The notes under the pieces: generated by a model
Told to the model about the DNA's origin: nothing
What the model saw: the letters and a program-made list of their open reading frames with translations, nothing else
Database searches by the model: none
From: Weeksellaceae bacterium TAE3-ERU29
Lineage (GTDB): Bacteria; Bacteroidota; Bacteroidia; Flavobacteriales; Weeksellaceae
Assembly: GCA_019218445.1 (NCBI GenBank)
Contig: JAHUUM010000002.1
Location: 1 to 64,000 of the forward strand
DNA: 64,000 nucleotides
Reading direction: 5' to 3'
Program-made: the position numbers and the translations under genes
Part shown: positions 14,358 through 20,803 of the stretch, one piece after another
Layout of the letters: each line of letters opens with the position of its first letter
Numbering within the stretch: the stretch's first letter is position 1

Positions 14358-14967
14358 TGTCATTTGAAAAGAATATTTTTATAAACTGTCCTTTTGATCA
14401 AAAATTTATAAACGACTTATTAAAACCTATGCTATATGTTTAATAAGAAATGATTTAAACCCAAGACTTGCTATTGAAGTTTCAGATTCAGGGCAATTCC
14501 GTTTAAAAAAAATAACAGAACTGATAAAGAGTTGTAAATTTAGTATTCATGATTTATCTAAAGTAAAATCTATTAAAGAAGATGAATATGCAAGAATGAA
14601 TATGCCTTTTGAATTAGGAATTGATTGGGGAATTAAGGAGGTACTTAAATCTGAAAAACAATTTTTAATATTAGAAGCTGAGAAATATGATTACATGAAA
14701 GCTTTGTCTGATATCAATGGATTAGATGTTAAAGTTCATGAGAATAATATTGAAACCTTATTTGAGTGTCTTTATGAATGGCTGAGCGAAACTCTAAAGA
14801 TTAGGAAGCAAGACCCACCTCTAAAATTATACTATGATTTTATAGACTATAATGCAAGTTTATTTGAAGAGAAATTATTAGAATTTAAATCTAAAAAAAT
14901 AGCCATTAACTATATAGAAAAGATAAGTATCCCGGAATATATAGCTGAAGTTAAAGAACGGATATGA
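14357..14967 (+). pseudogene. Frameshifted nucleotide-binding/TIR-like fold protein, partner of DUF2188
   Basis: Reading from ATG 14357 gives MSFEKNIFINCPFDQKFIND, then a stop near 14441. The family pattern resumes in the next frame with LIRNDLNPRLAIEVSDSG, then KSCKFSIHDLSK, then MNMPFELGIDWGIK. One missing T in the TTT at about 14438-14440 would restore one ~203-residue product. The core (FINCPFD, PRLAIE, SIHDLS, NMPFELG) is a widespread uncharacterised family that I believe has a flavodoxin/TIR-like fold; that is recollection, not a search. The last codons (ERI, stop) come from the AraC-tail repeat, so the natural C-terminus may be lost. It could be a true pseudogene or a sequencing error in a homopolymer. 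Confidence 0.7.
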
Positions 14968-15191: not shown

Positions 15192-15800
15192 ATGCTTATG
15201 ATTTCCATCTACAATATTAAGCCACAATTTCAGAAACTCTTAATGCCTATACTTACTTTTCTCCACAAGAAAGGAATTTCCGCCAATCAAATTACAATAA
15301 GTGCTATTATTTTATCATTGGTTATCGGGGTTTTATTTTGGAATGCAGATAAAAATCATTGGTTATTTTTAGCTCTTCCCATAGGATTATTAGTGAGAAT
15401 GGCACTAAATGCTTTGGACGGAATGCTCGCTCGCAAATACAATCAAATTACTGCAAAAGGCGAATTATTAAATGAATTAGGCGATTGTATTTCTGATGTT
15501 TTTGTATTTTTCCCTTTATTAAAATTCCAACCGGAAAGCCTTTATTTAGTGGTTGTATTTATTGTTTTAAGTTTAATTAACGAATATGCGGGCATTATGG
15601 GGAAAGTTATCACGGGCGAAAGACGCTACGAAGGACCTATGGGCAAAAGCGACCGAGCCTTCTTATTGGGACTTTACGGAGTTTTGAGTTTCTTCTCTAT
15701 AAATATAACTTCTATTTCAAATTATATCTTTCTGATTTTGATAATTTTACTCGGTATCAGCACTTGGATACGTATCAAAAAAACATTGAAGGCAACATAA
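15192..15800 (+). CDS. CDP-alcohol phosphatidyltransferase-like membrane protein (YnbA-like)
   Basis: This 202-residue protein has about six membrane segments and the CDP-alcohol transferase signature in altered form. The usual D-x2-DG-x2-AR-x8-G-x3-D-x3-D appears here as N-A-L-DGMLAR (residues about 74-82), then G-ELL-N-ELG-D-CIS-D, so the first and third acidic positions are Asn. Such enzymes move a phosphatidyl group from CDP-diacylglycerol to an alcohol in the inner membrane. It heads a six-gene operon (10 bases to the next gene) resembling E. coli ynbABCD. ATGs at 15192 and 15198 are both possible. The acceptor alcohol is unknown. Confidence 0.85.
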   Translation: MLMISIYNIKPQFQKLLMPILTFLHKKGISANQITISAIILSLVIGVLFWNADKNHWLFLALPIGLLVRMALNALDGMLARKYNQITAKGELLNELGDCISDVFVFFPLLKFQPESLYLVVVFIVLSLINEYAGIMGKVITGERRYEGPMGKSDRAFLLGLYGVLSFFSINITSISNYIFLILIILLGISTWIRIKKTLKAT

Positions 15801-15810
15801 CCGAAAATAA

Positions 15811-16605
15811 ATGTCAAATTCCCAAAGTAAATATGCAGATGTACCGATTAGAATACGAAGTTGGCTGATTATCATTGTAATAGTGAGTATTGGTTTACTT
15901 CATCATACTTTAACTTGTCTTCTTTTTACTCTACTTTCTTTTATCGGATTTAAAGAATTTTTAGCTTTGGAAAAACAAAAAAATCGGGCAATGCTTTATA
16001 GTTTTGTCCCGTTAAGTCTTTTTCAATTTTATACCTCTTGGGAAAATAATTATGTCTTGTTCATCTTTATTGTTCCGTTATATGCCTTACTTTTAGGTTT
16101 ATTATGGAAACGAATTTGGATATTTTTAATCGGAATTTTTATCAATGTTTGGACATTAGGACACTTGGCTTTTATTCCAAAACTACTTAATAATCAGTTA
16201 TCAGGAATAAAACTTCTGTTATTTTTGATTATCCTAACAGAATTAAACGATGTCTTTCAATATTTATTCGGGAAAAGTTTAGGCAAACGAAAAATATCGC
16301 CTTTCATCAGTCCCAACAAAACGAAAGAAGGACTAATAGGTGCTGTCTTTTCCACTACGATTATTTCTATTCCAATGGGATTATTTTTGATTCCCGACAA
16401 GAATATTTTTCTATATTTGGGATTAGGATTTTTAATTTCCATAGTAGGTTTTTGCGGAGATTTATTTATTTCCGCGCTCAAACGAAAAGCCAATGTAAAA
16501 GATACAAGCAATTTGATACCGGGACATGGCGGTTTACTCGATAGAATGGATAGTCTTATTTTTATTTCACCGATTTTTTACGGATTGTGCCACCTTATTT
16601 TTTAG
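15811..16605 (+). CDS. Phosphatidate cytidylyltransferase-like protein (YnbB-like CdsA paralogue)
   Basis: The C-terminal region carries the CDP-diacylglycerol synthase signature nearly intact (residues about 225-250): SALKRKANVKDTS, then PGHGGLLDRMDS. About eight hydrophobic segments fill the rest. The enzyme family makes CDP-diacylglycerol from CTP and phosphatidate, which is the donor for the CDP-alcohol transferase encoded just upstream. Because cells already need a housekeeping CdsA, this second copy is likely dedicated to the operon's own lipid. It is separated from the patatin-like gene by 3 bases. Confidence 0.88.
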   Translation: MSNSQSKYADVPIRIRSWLIIIVIVSIGLLHHTLTCLLFTLLSFIGFKEFLALEKQKNRAMLYSFVPLSLFQFYTSWENNYVLFIFIVPLYALLLGLLWKRIWIFLIGIFINVWTLGHLAFIPKLLNNQLSGIKLLLFLIILTELNDVFQYLFGKSLGKRKISPFISPNKTKEGLIGAVFSTTIISIPMGLFLIPDKNIFLYLGLGFLISIVGFCGDLFISALKRKANVKDTSNLIPGHGGLLDRMDSLIFISPIFYGLCHLIF

Positions 16606-16608
16606 AAA

Positions 16609-17664
16609 ATGATACCACAAAAACCAAAATATAAAAATGCGATTATTTTTTCGGGAGGAGGCACTCGTTTTGCTTTGTATTGCGGAATGTACGAGGCTTG
16701 CGAAGAAATGGGAATAAAACCCGATCTCATTATTTCGGCGTGTGGAGGTACAATCGCTTCGGCTGTTATCAATTCATTTTCAACGCATAAAGAACGAAAA
16801 GAATATCTGCAATCCAACGAGTTTTATCAATTTATTCTTTCGTTAAAATTAACCCACGAACGCTATTTGCATCGTATCGGTTGGCTTTGTATCAAAAAAA
16901 TGCTTTCCTCAAAAAAAGCACCTTATATAGAAGACATTTTTAATCGGTATTTGGTGGATATTCCAATGGATATTTCAACGGGATTACCTTCTTTGGCGAG
17001 AGAGTTCAGTCCGTCTGTGCCTACAATCATCGTAGGCTCAAAATTACTTTTTGACAAAGCAGAAACAGGCAACTTTCGCCACAATAGAAAACTATATCAA
17101 AAAGTGCTTTTTACTGATGAACAAACTGCAAAATCCATTGATGAAAATTCAATAAAAATCCATTCAGAAAACTATAAAACAAGTGCGGTGGACGACAAAA
17201 TTACAGTAAAAACGGATATTCCTTTACTTATAGCAACACGAATTTCAGTATCGGATATGTTTTATATGAGTCCCGTTTTTTGGCAAAATCATTATTATGC
17301 GGGTGGGGCAATTGACTTGTTACCCGCTGAATTAGCTTTGTCATTGGCAGAAAATATTATTTATGAGAAAAAACAAAATTACACCCGTTTGGAAGAGGCT
17401 CTTGTTCGGGCAGTTTTAGGCTTTAGCGGAAATGCTCGTTGGGAAGAAATCGAAAAAATCCTTCCTAAAAAATATGCTGTAAACACTACGGACGCTTCTA
17501 CCTTTTTCAAAGGTCATTATGTTTCAAAAAAGATTGATTTAAAGCGATTTGGCATCAAATTAGAAAAACCTTTCAGCTTTCAGAAATTTGTTAAAGATAT
17601 CGATTTTCAGTGGCAATACGGATATAATCGAACATTAGAAATGCTTAAAAAAGAAAGAAAATGA
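16609..17664 (+). CDS. Patatin-like phospholipase-family protein with altered catalytic dyad
   Basis: The N-terminus shows the oxyanion-hole loop of patatins (IIFSGGGTRFALYCG, residues about 11-25). The nucleophile elbow, normally GxSxG, reads SACGG (about residues 43-47), with Cys where the Ser should be. The second catalytic element, normally DG(G/A), reads YYAGGAIDLLP (about 226-236), with Ala in place of Asp. So either chemistry is changed (Cys nucleophile) or it is a non-catalytic lipid-binding member. Length 351. It overlaps the SDR gene by 4 bases (ATGA), indicating coupling within the lipid operon. Confidence 0.8.
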   Translation: MIPQKPKYKNAIIFSGGGTRFALYCGMYEACEEMGIKPDLIISACGGTIASAVINSFSTHKERKEYLQSNEFYQFILSLKLTHERYLHRIGWLCIKKMLSSKKAPYIEDIFNRYLVDIPMDISTGLPSLAREFSPSVPTIIVGSKLLFDKAETGNFRHNRKLYQKVLFTDEQTAKSIDENSIKIHSENYKTSAVDDKITVKTDIPLLIATRISVSDMFYMSPVFWQNHYYAGGAIDLLPAELALSLAENIIYEKKQNYTRLEEALVRAVLGFSGNARWEEIEKILPKKYAVNTTDASTFFKGHYVSKKIDLKRFGIKLEKPFSFQKFVKDIDFQWQYGYNRTLEMLKKERK

Positions 17665-18407
17665 AAATATTTATAATGGGCGGAACTTCAGGAATTGGTC
17701 AAGAATTGGCTCGAAGATATTTGGAAATGGGTAATGAAGTCGGAATTTGCGGACGAAATCTCGAAAAATCAGAATTACCCGAAAATCCTAACCTAAAAAG
17801 ATATGCCTTAGACGTTTACGATAAAAAAGATTTACAAAAAGCCGTAAAGAATTTTGCCGATGAGCATTTAGACATGATGATTATCTCTACCGGAACTTAT
17901 ACGGAAAGTATCGTCCACAAACTCACATACGAGGAAAGCGAGGCAATGCTAAAAACAAATCTCACGGGAACTATAAACGCCTTTGAAGTGGCACGCCAAG
18001 CAATGAAAAAATCAGGTGGACACATTGTAGCAATCGCCTCTGTTTCAGCATTATTGGACTATCCACAAAGCAGTCTGTACAGCAAAACTAAACGAATCAT
18101 TTTACAATTATGCGAAGCCTATCGGTGTGCCTTACAAGATTTTGGCATATCCGTTACCGCAATCGCACCCGGTTATGTGGACACACCAAAATTAAGAGAA
18201 CTCAAAAAAGACGACCTTTCCAAAATGCCTTTTGTCATCAGTTGTGAAAAGGCTTGCGATGAAATTATCAAAGCAATTTCCGACCGAAAAGAATTAGTTA
18301 TTTTCCCTAAAAAAATGAAACGACTAATGATGTTTTTGTCTTTTTTACCCAAAGGATTATTACGTTTTATAATGAAGAAAAAAGCACAATGGACTCAACC
18401 CGAATAA
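17661..18407 (+). CDS. Short-chain dehydrogenase/reductase of the lipid operon
   Basis: A classical SDR of 248 residues: the nucleotide-binding GGTSGIG is at residues about 7-13, a conserved Ser lies in AIASVSALL (about 127-135), and the catalytic YSKTK (YxxxK) is near 143-147. The C-terminal ~25 residues are basic and hydrophobic, suggesting membrane association. SDRs of this kind reduce or oxidise ketone/alcohol groups with NAD(P)(H). In this operon it may modify the lipid head group or acyl chain; the substrate is not known. Confidence 0.85.
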   Translation: MKIFIMGGTSGIGQELARRYLEMGNEVGICGRNLEKSELPENPNLKRYALDVYDKKDLQKAVKNFADEHLDMMIISTGTYTESIVHKLTYEESEAMLKTNLTGTINAFEVARQAMKKSGGHIVAIASVSALLDYPQSSLYSKTKRIILQLCEAYRCALQDFGISVTAIAPGYVDTPKLRELKKDDLSKMPFVISCEKACDEIIKAISDRKELVIFPKKMKRLMMFLSFLPKGLLRFIMKKKAQWTQPE

Positions 18408-19051
18408 ACCCAAAAACCTCTTTAAAAGATAGAATTATCAAATTGACAATCAGTTATTTGATTTTCTTTTTAATATATAATTTCACCGGATTTTATACCA
18501 AAAATTTAGACAATGTAAATACTTTTGTCTTTGATTTTGAGAAAAATATACCTTTCATTTCTTGGTTGATAATTCCGTATATGAGCAGTGGAATTTTCTT
18601 TGTATATGTTTTTTTGATAAGCTCTCACCAAAAAGATTTGAAATTATTATTTTGGAGAATCAATTTTATAACGATTGTTTCGGGAATATTTTTTCTTTTA
18701 TTTCCGTTGCATTTTACTTTTGAAAAACCTGAAATCCACAATTCTTTTTTAGCTTTTTTCTTTCGATTATTAGAAAAATACGACACTATTTACAACCAAG
18801 CACCTTCTTTGCATATTAGTTATGCTTATATTTTTTGGACAGTCATACGCCAAGAAATTAAATCCCCTTTTTGGAAAAATATCTTGGGAATTTGGTTATT
18901 TTTAATGGGAATTTCGACATTATTCGTATATCAACACCATTTAATTGATATTATTTCAGCATTGATTTTGGTAGCGATAACGTTGAGGATATTTCAAAAG
19001 AAAAATAAATCTATTGAGAATAAAGAAAATCAACTTCATCAAAAATGTTGA
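18389..19051 (+). CDS. PAP2-like membrane phosphatase (YnbD-like N-terminal part)
   Basis: A 220-residue protein with about six membrane segments. Two PAP2 elements are visible: APSLHISYAY (the PSGH position reads PSLH) near residues 132-142, and YQHHLIDIISA (H-x3-D) near 172-182. The first PAP2 motif (K-x6-RP) is not evident. The PSLH form occurs in the lipid phosphotransferase/phosphatase branch of the superfamily. Its start overlaps the SDR gene by 19 bases. E. coli YnbD has a similar PAP2 part fused to a dual-specificity phosphatase; that second domain is absent here. Confidence 0.75.
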   Translation: MDSTRINPKTSLKDRIIKLTISYLIFFLIYNFTGFYTKNLDNVNTFVFDFEKNIPFISWLIIPYMSSGIFFVYVFLISSHQKDLKLLFWRINFITIVSGIFFLLFPLHFTFEKPEIHNSFLAFFFRLLEKYDTIYNQAPSLHISYAYIFWTVIRQEIKSPFWKNILGIWLFLMGISTLFVYQHHLIDIISALILVAITLRIFQKKNKSIENKENQLHQKC

Positions 19052-19093
19052 ACTTTTCATTATATTTACCCTTTCATAAATCATAAATTCAAT

Positions 19094-20803
19094 ATGAAAA
19101 CAGGATATTTTAACAGCTTTGACGGTGCAGAATTGTTCTTTCGTGAATGGAAATTCAAACCCGAACAAAAAACAATTATTATATTGCATCGTGGACACGA
19201 GCATTCAGAACGACTAAACGAATTTGCTACAAATTCACGTTTTGAAAAATATAATATTTTCGGTTACGACCAACGAGGAAATGGTTATACAAAGCAAAAA
19301 GTATCCCCTATTTTTATGGATTCTGTTCGGGATTTGGATTGTTTTGTTTCTTTTCTGAACTCAAAATACGGCATTTCATCGGAAGATATTTTCATTGTAG
19401 CCAATAGTATTGCGGGCGTAATTGTTTCGGCGTGGGTTCACGATTTTGCCCCTAAAATTGCGGGTATGGTATTACTTGCTCCTGCTTTTGAAATCAATTT
19501 ATACGTACCTCTGGCAGTGCAATTTATCACGTTGGGAACGAAAATTAAAAAAGATTTGACCGTAAAAAGCTACGTAAAAGCCAAAATGCTCACTCACGAT
19601 GAAGAACAACAAAAAGCCTACGATGCCGACTCACTCATTACCAAAGATATCAATGCCCGTTTGCTTATCGATTTGCATAATGCGGGAAAACGCCTCGTAG
19701 AAGACGCTTCGGCTATTGACTTGCCTACATTGATGCTTTCTGCCGATAAAGATTATGTAGTAAAAACCAAAGCACAAAAGCAATTTTTCGTCGGGTTAGA
19801 ATCAGAATGCAAGGAATTTATTTTATTAAAAGATTTTTATCACGGAGTGCTTTTTGAAAAAGACAGACATATCGTTTACGACCATATTCTACGATTTGCC
19901 GACAAATGTTTTGCTTTGGAAAATCAAGAAAACAAACCATTAAATCCCGATAAATTCACACAAGATGAATTTCATAAAATGAATTTGGGATTGATGTCCC
20001 AAGCCGAAAATCTTAACTATAAATTTCAGAAATGGGCTTTAAAAAATATCGGCTCTTTAAGTAAAGGAATGGAAATCGGACTGAAATACGGATTTGATTC
20101 GGGAATTTCGTTGGATTATGTTTATAAAAATCAACCACAAGGAAAACTCGGTATCGGTAAAATGATTGATTCTAATTATTTAAACGCAATCGGTTGGAAA
20201 GGCATACGAAAACGTAAAGAAAATTTATTGCAATTACTCTCCGAAGCAGTCGAAAATTTGCAAAGTGAAGGTAAATTTGTAAAAATATTAGATATTGCGG
20301 GTGGTACGGGAAATTATTTATTTTCTTTAAAAGAAAAATTCCCTGATATTGAGGTTGTTATCAATGAATTTAAACTTTCTAATATTGAGGTTGGCGAAAA
20401 ATATATTACCGAAAAAGGATTGACAAATATCCGTTTTACCAATTATGATTGTTTTGATTTAGAAACCTATCAAAAGTTAAATTATCAACCCAATATTATT
20501 ATTATTTCGGGAATTTTTGAGTTATTTGAAGATAATCATTTAATAAATAAAGCTATTAGCGGAGCGGTTTCCATTGCTGAAAATAACGGATATTTGGTTT
20601 ATACGGGACAACCTTGGCACCCGCAATTAAAGACAATTGCTTATGTTTTGAACAGTCATCAAGAAAAAGACTGGGTAATGCGAAGACGCTCTCAAAAAGA
20701 ATTAGACCGAATTTTTGCTTTTAATCAAGTAAAAAAAGAAAAAATGCTACTAGATGATAATGGGATTTTTACAGTTTCATTGGGTAGGATTTTAAAAAGA
20801 TAA
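19094..20803 (+). CDS. Fused alpha/beta-hydrolase and class I SAM-dependent methyltransferase (YnbC-like)
   Basis: Residues about 1-280 are an alpha/beta hydrolase of the monoacylglycerol-lipase kind: HRGHEHSERL, YDQRGNGYT, and an elbow ANSIAG in which the usual first Gly is Asn, then a terminal His in FYHGVLFEKDR. Residues about 350-569 are a methyltransferase with SAM motif I LDIAGGTGNYL (about 400-410) and acidic NEF after strand 2. The fusion matches the size and order of E. coli YnbC. Together with the upstream genes it suggests building, methylating and remodelling of an unusual phospholipid. Substrates are unknown. Confidence 0.85.
   Translation: MKTGYFNSFDGAELFFREWKFKPEQKTIIILHRGHEHSERLNEFATNSRFEKYNIFGYDQRGNGYTKQKVSPIFMDSVRDLDCFVSFLNSKYGISSEDIFIVANSIAGVIVSAWVHDFAPKIAGMVLLAPAFEINLYVPLAVQFITLGTKIKKDLTVKSYVKAKMLTHDEEQQKAYDADSLITKDINARLLIDLHNAGKRLVEDASAIDLPTLMLSADKDYVVKTKAQKQFFVGLESECKEFILLKDFYHGVLFEKDRHIVYDHILRFADKCFALENQENKPLNPDKFTQDEFHKMNLGLMSQAENLNYKFQKWALKNIGSLSKGMEIGLKYGFDSGISLDYVYKNQPQGKLGIGKMIDSNYLNAIGWKGIRKRKENLLQLLSEAVENLQSEGKFVKILDIAGGTGNYLFSLKEKFPDIEVVINEFKLSNIEVGEKYITEKGLTNIRFTNYDCFDLETYQKLNYQPNIIIISGIFELFEDNHLINKAISGAVSIAENNGYLVYTGQPWHPQLKTIAYVLNSHQEKDWVMRRRSQKELDRIFAFNQVKKEKMLLDDNGIFTVSLGRILKR

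Follow-up and report, generated by a model that had tools for sequence, protein, structure and literature searches.

Analysis of a 64,000-nucleotide stretch of Weeksellaceae bacterium TAE3-ERU29 (contig JAHUUM010000002.1, positions 1 to 64,000; the window below) revealed six open reading frames (ORFs) on the forward strand between positions 15192 and 20803, separated by gaps of 10, 3, -4, -19 and 42 bases. In order, they encode a YnbA-like CDP-alcohol phosphatidyltransferase (15192..15800, 202 aa; CDP-OH_P_transf, PF01066, 9e-12), a YnbB-like CDP-diacylglycerol synthase (15811..16605, 264 aa; CTP_transf_1, PF01148, 4e-58), a patatin-fold protein (16609..17664, 351 aa; Patatin, PF01734, 1e-9), a classical short-chain dehydrogenase/reductase (SDR; 17661..18407, 248 aa; adh_short, PF00106, 8e-33), a PAP2-fold integral membrane protein (18389..19051, 220 aa; PAP2/PAP2_3, PF01569/PF14378) and a YnbC-like hydrolase-methyltransferase fusion (19094..20803, 569 aa; Hydrolase_4, PF12146, 3e-51, and Methyltransf_20, PF12147, 5e-90). 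The compact operon and the positions and spacing of its ORFs are thus as given in the initial annotation, and the family assignments were sound as well, though PAP2 barely reaches the Pfam cut-off. The G + C content of the operon (27-37%) does not stand out from that of the window (32%), and scans for promoters and terminators gave results at chance level.

Direct comparison with E. coli K-12 MG1655 bore out the kinship with ynbABCD that the initial annotation had proposed. Identity was 49% over 162 aa for YnbA, 41% over 271 aa for YnbB, 38% over 570 aa (full length) for YnbC and 35% over 162 aa, the PAP2 half, for YnbD. The four proteins are homologues of YnbA, YnbB, YnbC and YnbD and, judged from sequence, probably orthologues. 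The match holds for A, B, C and the PAP2 half of D, and the YnbA, YnbB and YnbC homologues are linked as in E. coli; it does not extend to the phosphatase half of YnbD or to the gene order, which is A-B-patatin-SDR-D-C here and in relatives.

Conserved gene neighbours, whose absence had been named beforehand as grounds for giving up the proposed operon, were found in other genomes. A scan of GTDB species genomes gave 24 loci in Bacteroidota, rising to about 33 with later additions, nearly all with the same gene order. A, B, patatin, SDR and C lie in the same order in 23 of the 24; the full six-gene order was seen in Flavobacterium, Sphingobacterium, Myroides, Cellulophaga and Aquimarina, while single genes are missing in Dysgonomonas (no B at locus L004) and in Capnocytophaga (no D, the PAP2 gene, at four loci). 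Genome searches added further complete six-gene loci (L061-L065 and L083-L085), among which L063 and L026 stand on one contig; L082 likewise duplicates the contig of L007, which belongs to genome G941. Conservation of the six-gene order is far above chance. Clustering of all neighbouring ORFs of the 24 loci found no further neighbour conserved beyond one genus. Upstream of the operon, an ORF of 123 aa (window 14596-14967) has no Pfam or NCBIfam match and is not conserved with the six genes.

The YnbA-like protein matches the PF01066 profile with 46 bits (cut-off 22), but it departs from the canonical motif D1..D2G..AR........G...D3...D4. Its motif reads N73..D76G77..A80R81........G90...N94...D98...D102, with the first and third metal-binding Asp replaced by Asn. 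The same replacement of two of the four metal-binding Asp was present in every YnbA copy read, from Bacteroidota, E. coli, Fusobacterium, Rhizobium, Burkholderia, Shinella, Pseudanabaena, Caballeronia and Citrobacter. Among 30 housekeeping CDP-alcohol transferases taken from relatives, all had the canonical Asp and none the Asn replacement, and the AF2299 structure, when aligned to YnbA, has Asp at both positions.

In the YnbB-like protein the CdsA signature, defined as S-x-[LIVMF]-K-R-x4-K-D-...-H-G-G-x-x-D-R-x-D, is intact in the alignment (SALKRKANVKDTSNLIPGHGGLLDRMD). The genome encodes a second CdsA outside the operon, and the proposal that the operon brings a CDP-lipid synthase and a head-group transferase of its own is supported. 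E. coli YnbB forms CDP-diacylglycerol in vitro (review PMC7018664). At locus L013 (3860-4691) of Sphingobacterium multivorum NCTC11343 the CdsA-like gene is split in two frames, with one in-frame TAG in the genome search; it is either broken or the product of a sequencing error.

The patatin-like protein keeps the patatin fold: its model (mean predicted local distance difference test, pLDDT, 88) matched PlpD, CapV and cPLA2 with E-values of 9e-8 to 6e-5 and was nearest to PlpD and CapV. The Ser-Asp dyad of patatin-like phospholipases (GxSxG and DGG) is absent; Cys45, at the strand-helix elbow, stands in place of the nucleophile Ser, and Ala in place of the Asp of DGG. Profile scans found Cys as nucleophile and no dyad Asp in 34/34 patatins across loci, the Asp position being Ala, Leu, Thr or Met when aligned to PlpD. 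This pairing of a Cys nucleophile with a lost Asp does not resemble a lipase site; acyl transfer would be compatible with it, as would a role without catalysis. The SDR is classical, with cofactor loop GGTSGIG and triad S127-Y140-K144 intact and a conserved basic and hydrophobic C-terminus in the alignment. Its PDB profile matches were ElxO and FabG, and neither NCBIfam nor PDB gave a hint of its substrate.

Among 48 loci covered by the profile scans, 34 carry the patatin, always with the SDR, 11 carry a PlsC-like acyltransferase, and none carries both; two of the loci, L063 and L026, are a single contig. The patatin and SDR occur in Bacteroidota and Moraxella; the PlsC-like acyltransferase occurs in proteobacterial and cyanobacterial loci and in one Flavobacteriales genome (G919, locus L086). 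The PlsC-like proteins belong to PF01553 (3/3 tested), and 8/9 have the NHx4D motif. In the YnbC tree, in which Moraxella is represented by the methyltransferase part alone since its YnbC is split into two frames, one change separates the two module types (support 97/89). The exceptions to host taxonomy are Moraxella on the patatin side and the Flavobacteriales genome on the PlsC side. Since the modules never share a locus and the choice between them follows the phylogeny of the operon and not that of the host, they look like alternative acyl modules. The patatin and SDR, taken by the initial annotation as additions to an E. coli-like operon, are therefore better seen as one of two such modules, which we infer to do related jobs, most simply the supply or editing of an acylated precursor. 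To judge from their families, a reductase and an acyl-transfer enzyme would fit an acyl-dihydroxyacetone-phosphate route. The acyltransferase-type operon also occurs in E. coli, on plasmids of three genomes. After ynbD in acyltransferase-type loci there is a protein of 136-150 aa that has hydrophobic segments and, in the three tested, no Pfam match (L074 11073-11513, L076 11140-11592, L077 11076-11513, L088 12183-12593 and L091 3372-3803), possibly a further pathway member.

The PAP2 protein is the counterpart of the N-terminal half of YnbD, with motifs PSLH ... QHHLID. The dual-specificity phosphatase domain, present in most Bacteroidota YnbD copies, is absent here, in locus L017 and in Capnocytophaga, and no PF00782 match was found anywhere in this genome. 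The model (pLDDT 86) fitted best to human SMSr (Z 14.7, root-mean-square deviation 4.5, 196 residues), followed by inositol phosphorylceramide (IPC) synthase (Z 13.2, 3.8, 193 residues) and Aur1 (Z 13.2, 4.3, 212 residues); the phosphatases LpxE (Z 10.8, 3.4, 148 residues) and PgpB (Z 10.3, 3.9, 156 residues) align only from about residue 42 onward. Foldseek E-values were weak (best 3e-3). The predicted structure thus agrees with a sphingomyelin synthase (SMS)/IPC-synthase fold, though the wider PAP2 fold is shared and the fold alone is not decisive. The dephosphorylation step of the initial annotation should therefore not be assumed, since phosphotransferases fit the model better than phosphatases do and no separate phosphatase domain is present, but transfer is not proven by fold either. 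E. coli and Moraxella, which host operons of this kind, are not known for sphingolipids.

The hydrolase part of the YnbC-like fusion has the triad S105-D220-H250, invariant in the alignment with E. coli included, and its PDB profile match is monoglyceride lipase. The second part is a Methyltransf_20 domain with the motif DIAGGTG, and the closest YnbC match is from Dysgonomonadaceae. The host itself is not of that family; it falls in one family with a MAG labelled Flavobacteriaceae (G941). When ynbC was disrupted, polyphosphate accumulated in one E. coli background and not in Keio strains, with polar effects not excluded (PMC2435150). Locus L060 (4103-5806, genome G329) has a complete Capnocytophaga-type YnbC with no other operon member within the 14 kb examined. 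Plasmid p888-76-2 of Kosakonia cowanii (L079, 3430-9155) has a Methyltransf_20-type YnbC relative (31% over 66%) at the end of a cluster for a carrier protein, ketosynthase, MaoC dehydratase, FabG and metal-dependent hydrolase, and a fatty-acid-like pathway may be a second context for this methyltransferase family.

The operon is rare and patchily distributed. A strong Methyltransf_20 match was found in 0/295 other genomes sampled evenly across the phylum, and the patatin in 0/394 other genomes. A YnbC-type protein was present in 3/249, 5/201 and 6/148 genomes of three families (about 1-4%), each count including the genome on which the search was centred. Three genomes of the same genus lack the operon; comparison of the insertion site with these found only the downstream MATE gene, at 53-55% identity and in a different neighbourhood, and the site is therefore uninformative on insertion. 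That the operon is rare, constant in its internal order and variable in its surroundings suggests horizontal transfer or repeated loss, and it has probably spread horizontally. No relatives were found in viral contigs or phage records. In a plasmid collection that includes mislabelled chromosomes, YnbC was found in Fusobacterium, Rhizobiaceae, Burkholderiales, Moraxella and Enterobacteriaceae, and its methyltransferase part alone in Pseudanabaena. YnbA was present in 30 records of this collection, with a YnbC/Methyltransf_20 gene at the locus in all but Caballeronia; YnbA and YnbC travel together. Outside Bacteroidota the A-B-C core was seen in Fusobacterium, Proteobacteria and one cyanobacterium, and the Fusobacterium locus, with C-A-B only, indicates that A, B and C form the minimal core. 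The locus of Caballeronia sp. M1242 (L087, 5236-8600) lacks YnbC; there, genes for YnbB, an acyltransferase and YnbA lie next to a family 2 glycosyltransferase gene in convergent orientation, which may mark a sugar-linked variant.

Taken together, the protein families and motifs, the homology, the conserved neighbourhood and the mutual exclusion of the two acyl modules make it reasonably probable that this is a self-contained operon building or remodelling one minor membrane phospholipid, a claim that does not extend to each step. Beyond CDP-diacylglycerol formation by YnbB, the reactions, their order and the product that follow are what we infer from these observations. The acyl module, here the Cys-patatin and SDR and elsewhere the PlsC-type acyltransferase, would supply or edit a dedicated phosphatidate-like acceptor, perhaps by Cys-mediated acyl transfer and reduction of an acyl-dihydroxyacetone-phosphate-type ketone. 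The YnbB-like enzyme would activate this acceptor with CTP to CDP-diacylglycerol, from which the YnbA-like enzyme, with its changed metal site, would move the phosphatidyl group onto an alcohol or alcohol phosphate. The YnbC-like fusion may then methylate the product, with the lipase-type domain trimming or transacylating that product, and the PAP2 protein, with its SMS/IPC-synthase-like fold, might swap or remove the phosphate-linked head group on the outer leaflet. Reduction and methylation, already named in the initial annotation, are suggested by family names and stay putative. Only tentatively do we go further, to an undescribed phospholipid class from a mobile pathway: a Cys-patatin acyltransferase and SDR would take the place of PlsC, a CDP-alcohol transferase with a remodelled metal site would attach the head group, and a bacterial sphingomyelin-synthase-like PAP2 protein would exchange it.

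Several points weigh against a lipid-building operon of this kind. No product has been described, and an assay was found for YnbB alone among these proteins. With Asn at two metal positions, YnbA might not catalyse the usual reaction. The four Capnocytophaga loci without PAP2, and the Capnocytophaga-like genome with YnbC only, show that some steps can at times be dispensed with. The evidence that the modules exclude each other comes from two large clades and so counts as few independent events, and the YnbC tree is made less reliable by the long branches of Pseudanabaena, G919 and Moraxella. In E. coli, ynbB is dispensable (PMC6362211), and so are the other ynb genes, ynbA-D being in the gene list of the reduced-genome DGF-298 paper, which we read as deleted genes (PMC10652928).

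Other functions would account for part of these data. A phosphatidylinositol-like or polyol-phosphate lipid, with an alcohol phosphate as the YnbA acceptor and the phosphate stripped by the PAP2/dual-specificity phosphatase part, is suggested by the best NCBIfam match of the YnbA-like protein, archaetidylinositol phosphate synthase (78 bits, ahead of PgsA with 32), by the basic residues conserved in GKSDRA after the YnbA core motif in the alignment, and by the phosphatase domain of most YnbD proteins. However, the score is far under the family cut-off of 180, inositol phosphate synthase was not seen in the loci, and the missing phosphatase domain and phosphotransferase-like PAP2 fold described above do not agree with it; we regard such a lipid as unlikely. 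Turnover or repair of lipid, in place of synthesis, offers another explanation, in which hydrolase, patatin and PAP2 degrade damaged phospholipid and CdsA and CDP-transferase recycle it. Three proteins do come from lipase/phosphatase superfamilies, the invariant YnbC triad is monoglyceride lipase-like, and activation of ynbA by BglJ-RcsB after acid stress in E. coli has been reported, as cited in PMC12871917. But the patatin lacks the lipase dyad, its alternative is an acyltransferase, an anabolic enzyme, and the rarity of the operon is ill-suited to general repair, which makes this function distinctly improbable.

YnbB has also been presented as a paralogue of CdsA devoted to the glycolipid MPIase; its overproduction raises MPIase in E. 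coli, while the bulk phospholipid role of CdsA is not replaced (PMC6362211, PMC7018664). The operon could then be a backup MPIase route, with GlcNAc-PP-diacylglycerol formed by the YnbB-like enzyme and completed or tuned by the remaining proteins. Deletion of ynbB, however, leaves MPIase unchanged (PMC6362211), the annotated loci have no glycosyltransferase save the convergent one in Caballeronia, and YnbA, YnbC and YnbD, which co-travel with YnbB, are left unexplained. This route is very unlikely.

At least 80% of ynbABCD was present in 4242/5426 E. coli genomes. The genes thus sit in most genomes of this species, yet the activity of YnbB is the sole enzyme activity found reported. Within the open-licence papers covered, no description of the six-gene form or of the module exchange was found, and the special lipid of the initial annotation is not named in the searchable literature. 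New here are the module exclusivity, the Cys-patatin without Asp, the Asn-altered YnbA metal site and the SMS/IPC-synthase-like PAP2 fold. The comparison offers biochemists a minimal core, two interchangeable-looking acyl modules, invariant unusual residues and natural hosts. Should the operon make a new lipid, that lipid has so far escaped lipidomic work on these bacteria.

Among known systems, the patatin-like phospholipases PlpD, CapV and CapE share the patatin fold and the GGGxR oxyanion loop with the protein found here, in which the catalytic Ser is Cys and the catalytic Asp is missing. SMSr, IPC synthase and Aur1 resemble the PAP2 protein in predicted fold over nearly its whole length (Z 13-15), at 10-12% identity. 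E. coli K-12 ynbABCD (b1408-b1411) has 35-49% identity to the operon, the same A-B start and the same YnbA motif N..DG...N...D, but it has no patatin or SDR, runs in the order A-B-C-D and carries an extra dual-specificity phosphatase domain in YnbD. In the PlsC-type loci (E. coli IncK2/Z plasmid, Citrobacter, Shinella, Rhizobium, Burkholderia), a PF01553 acyltransferase replaces the patatin and SDR and the extra 136-150 aa protein is often added, while the core of A, B, C and usually D is the same as that of the operon described here.

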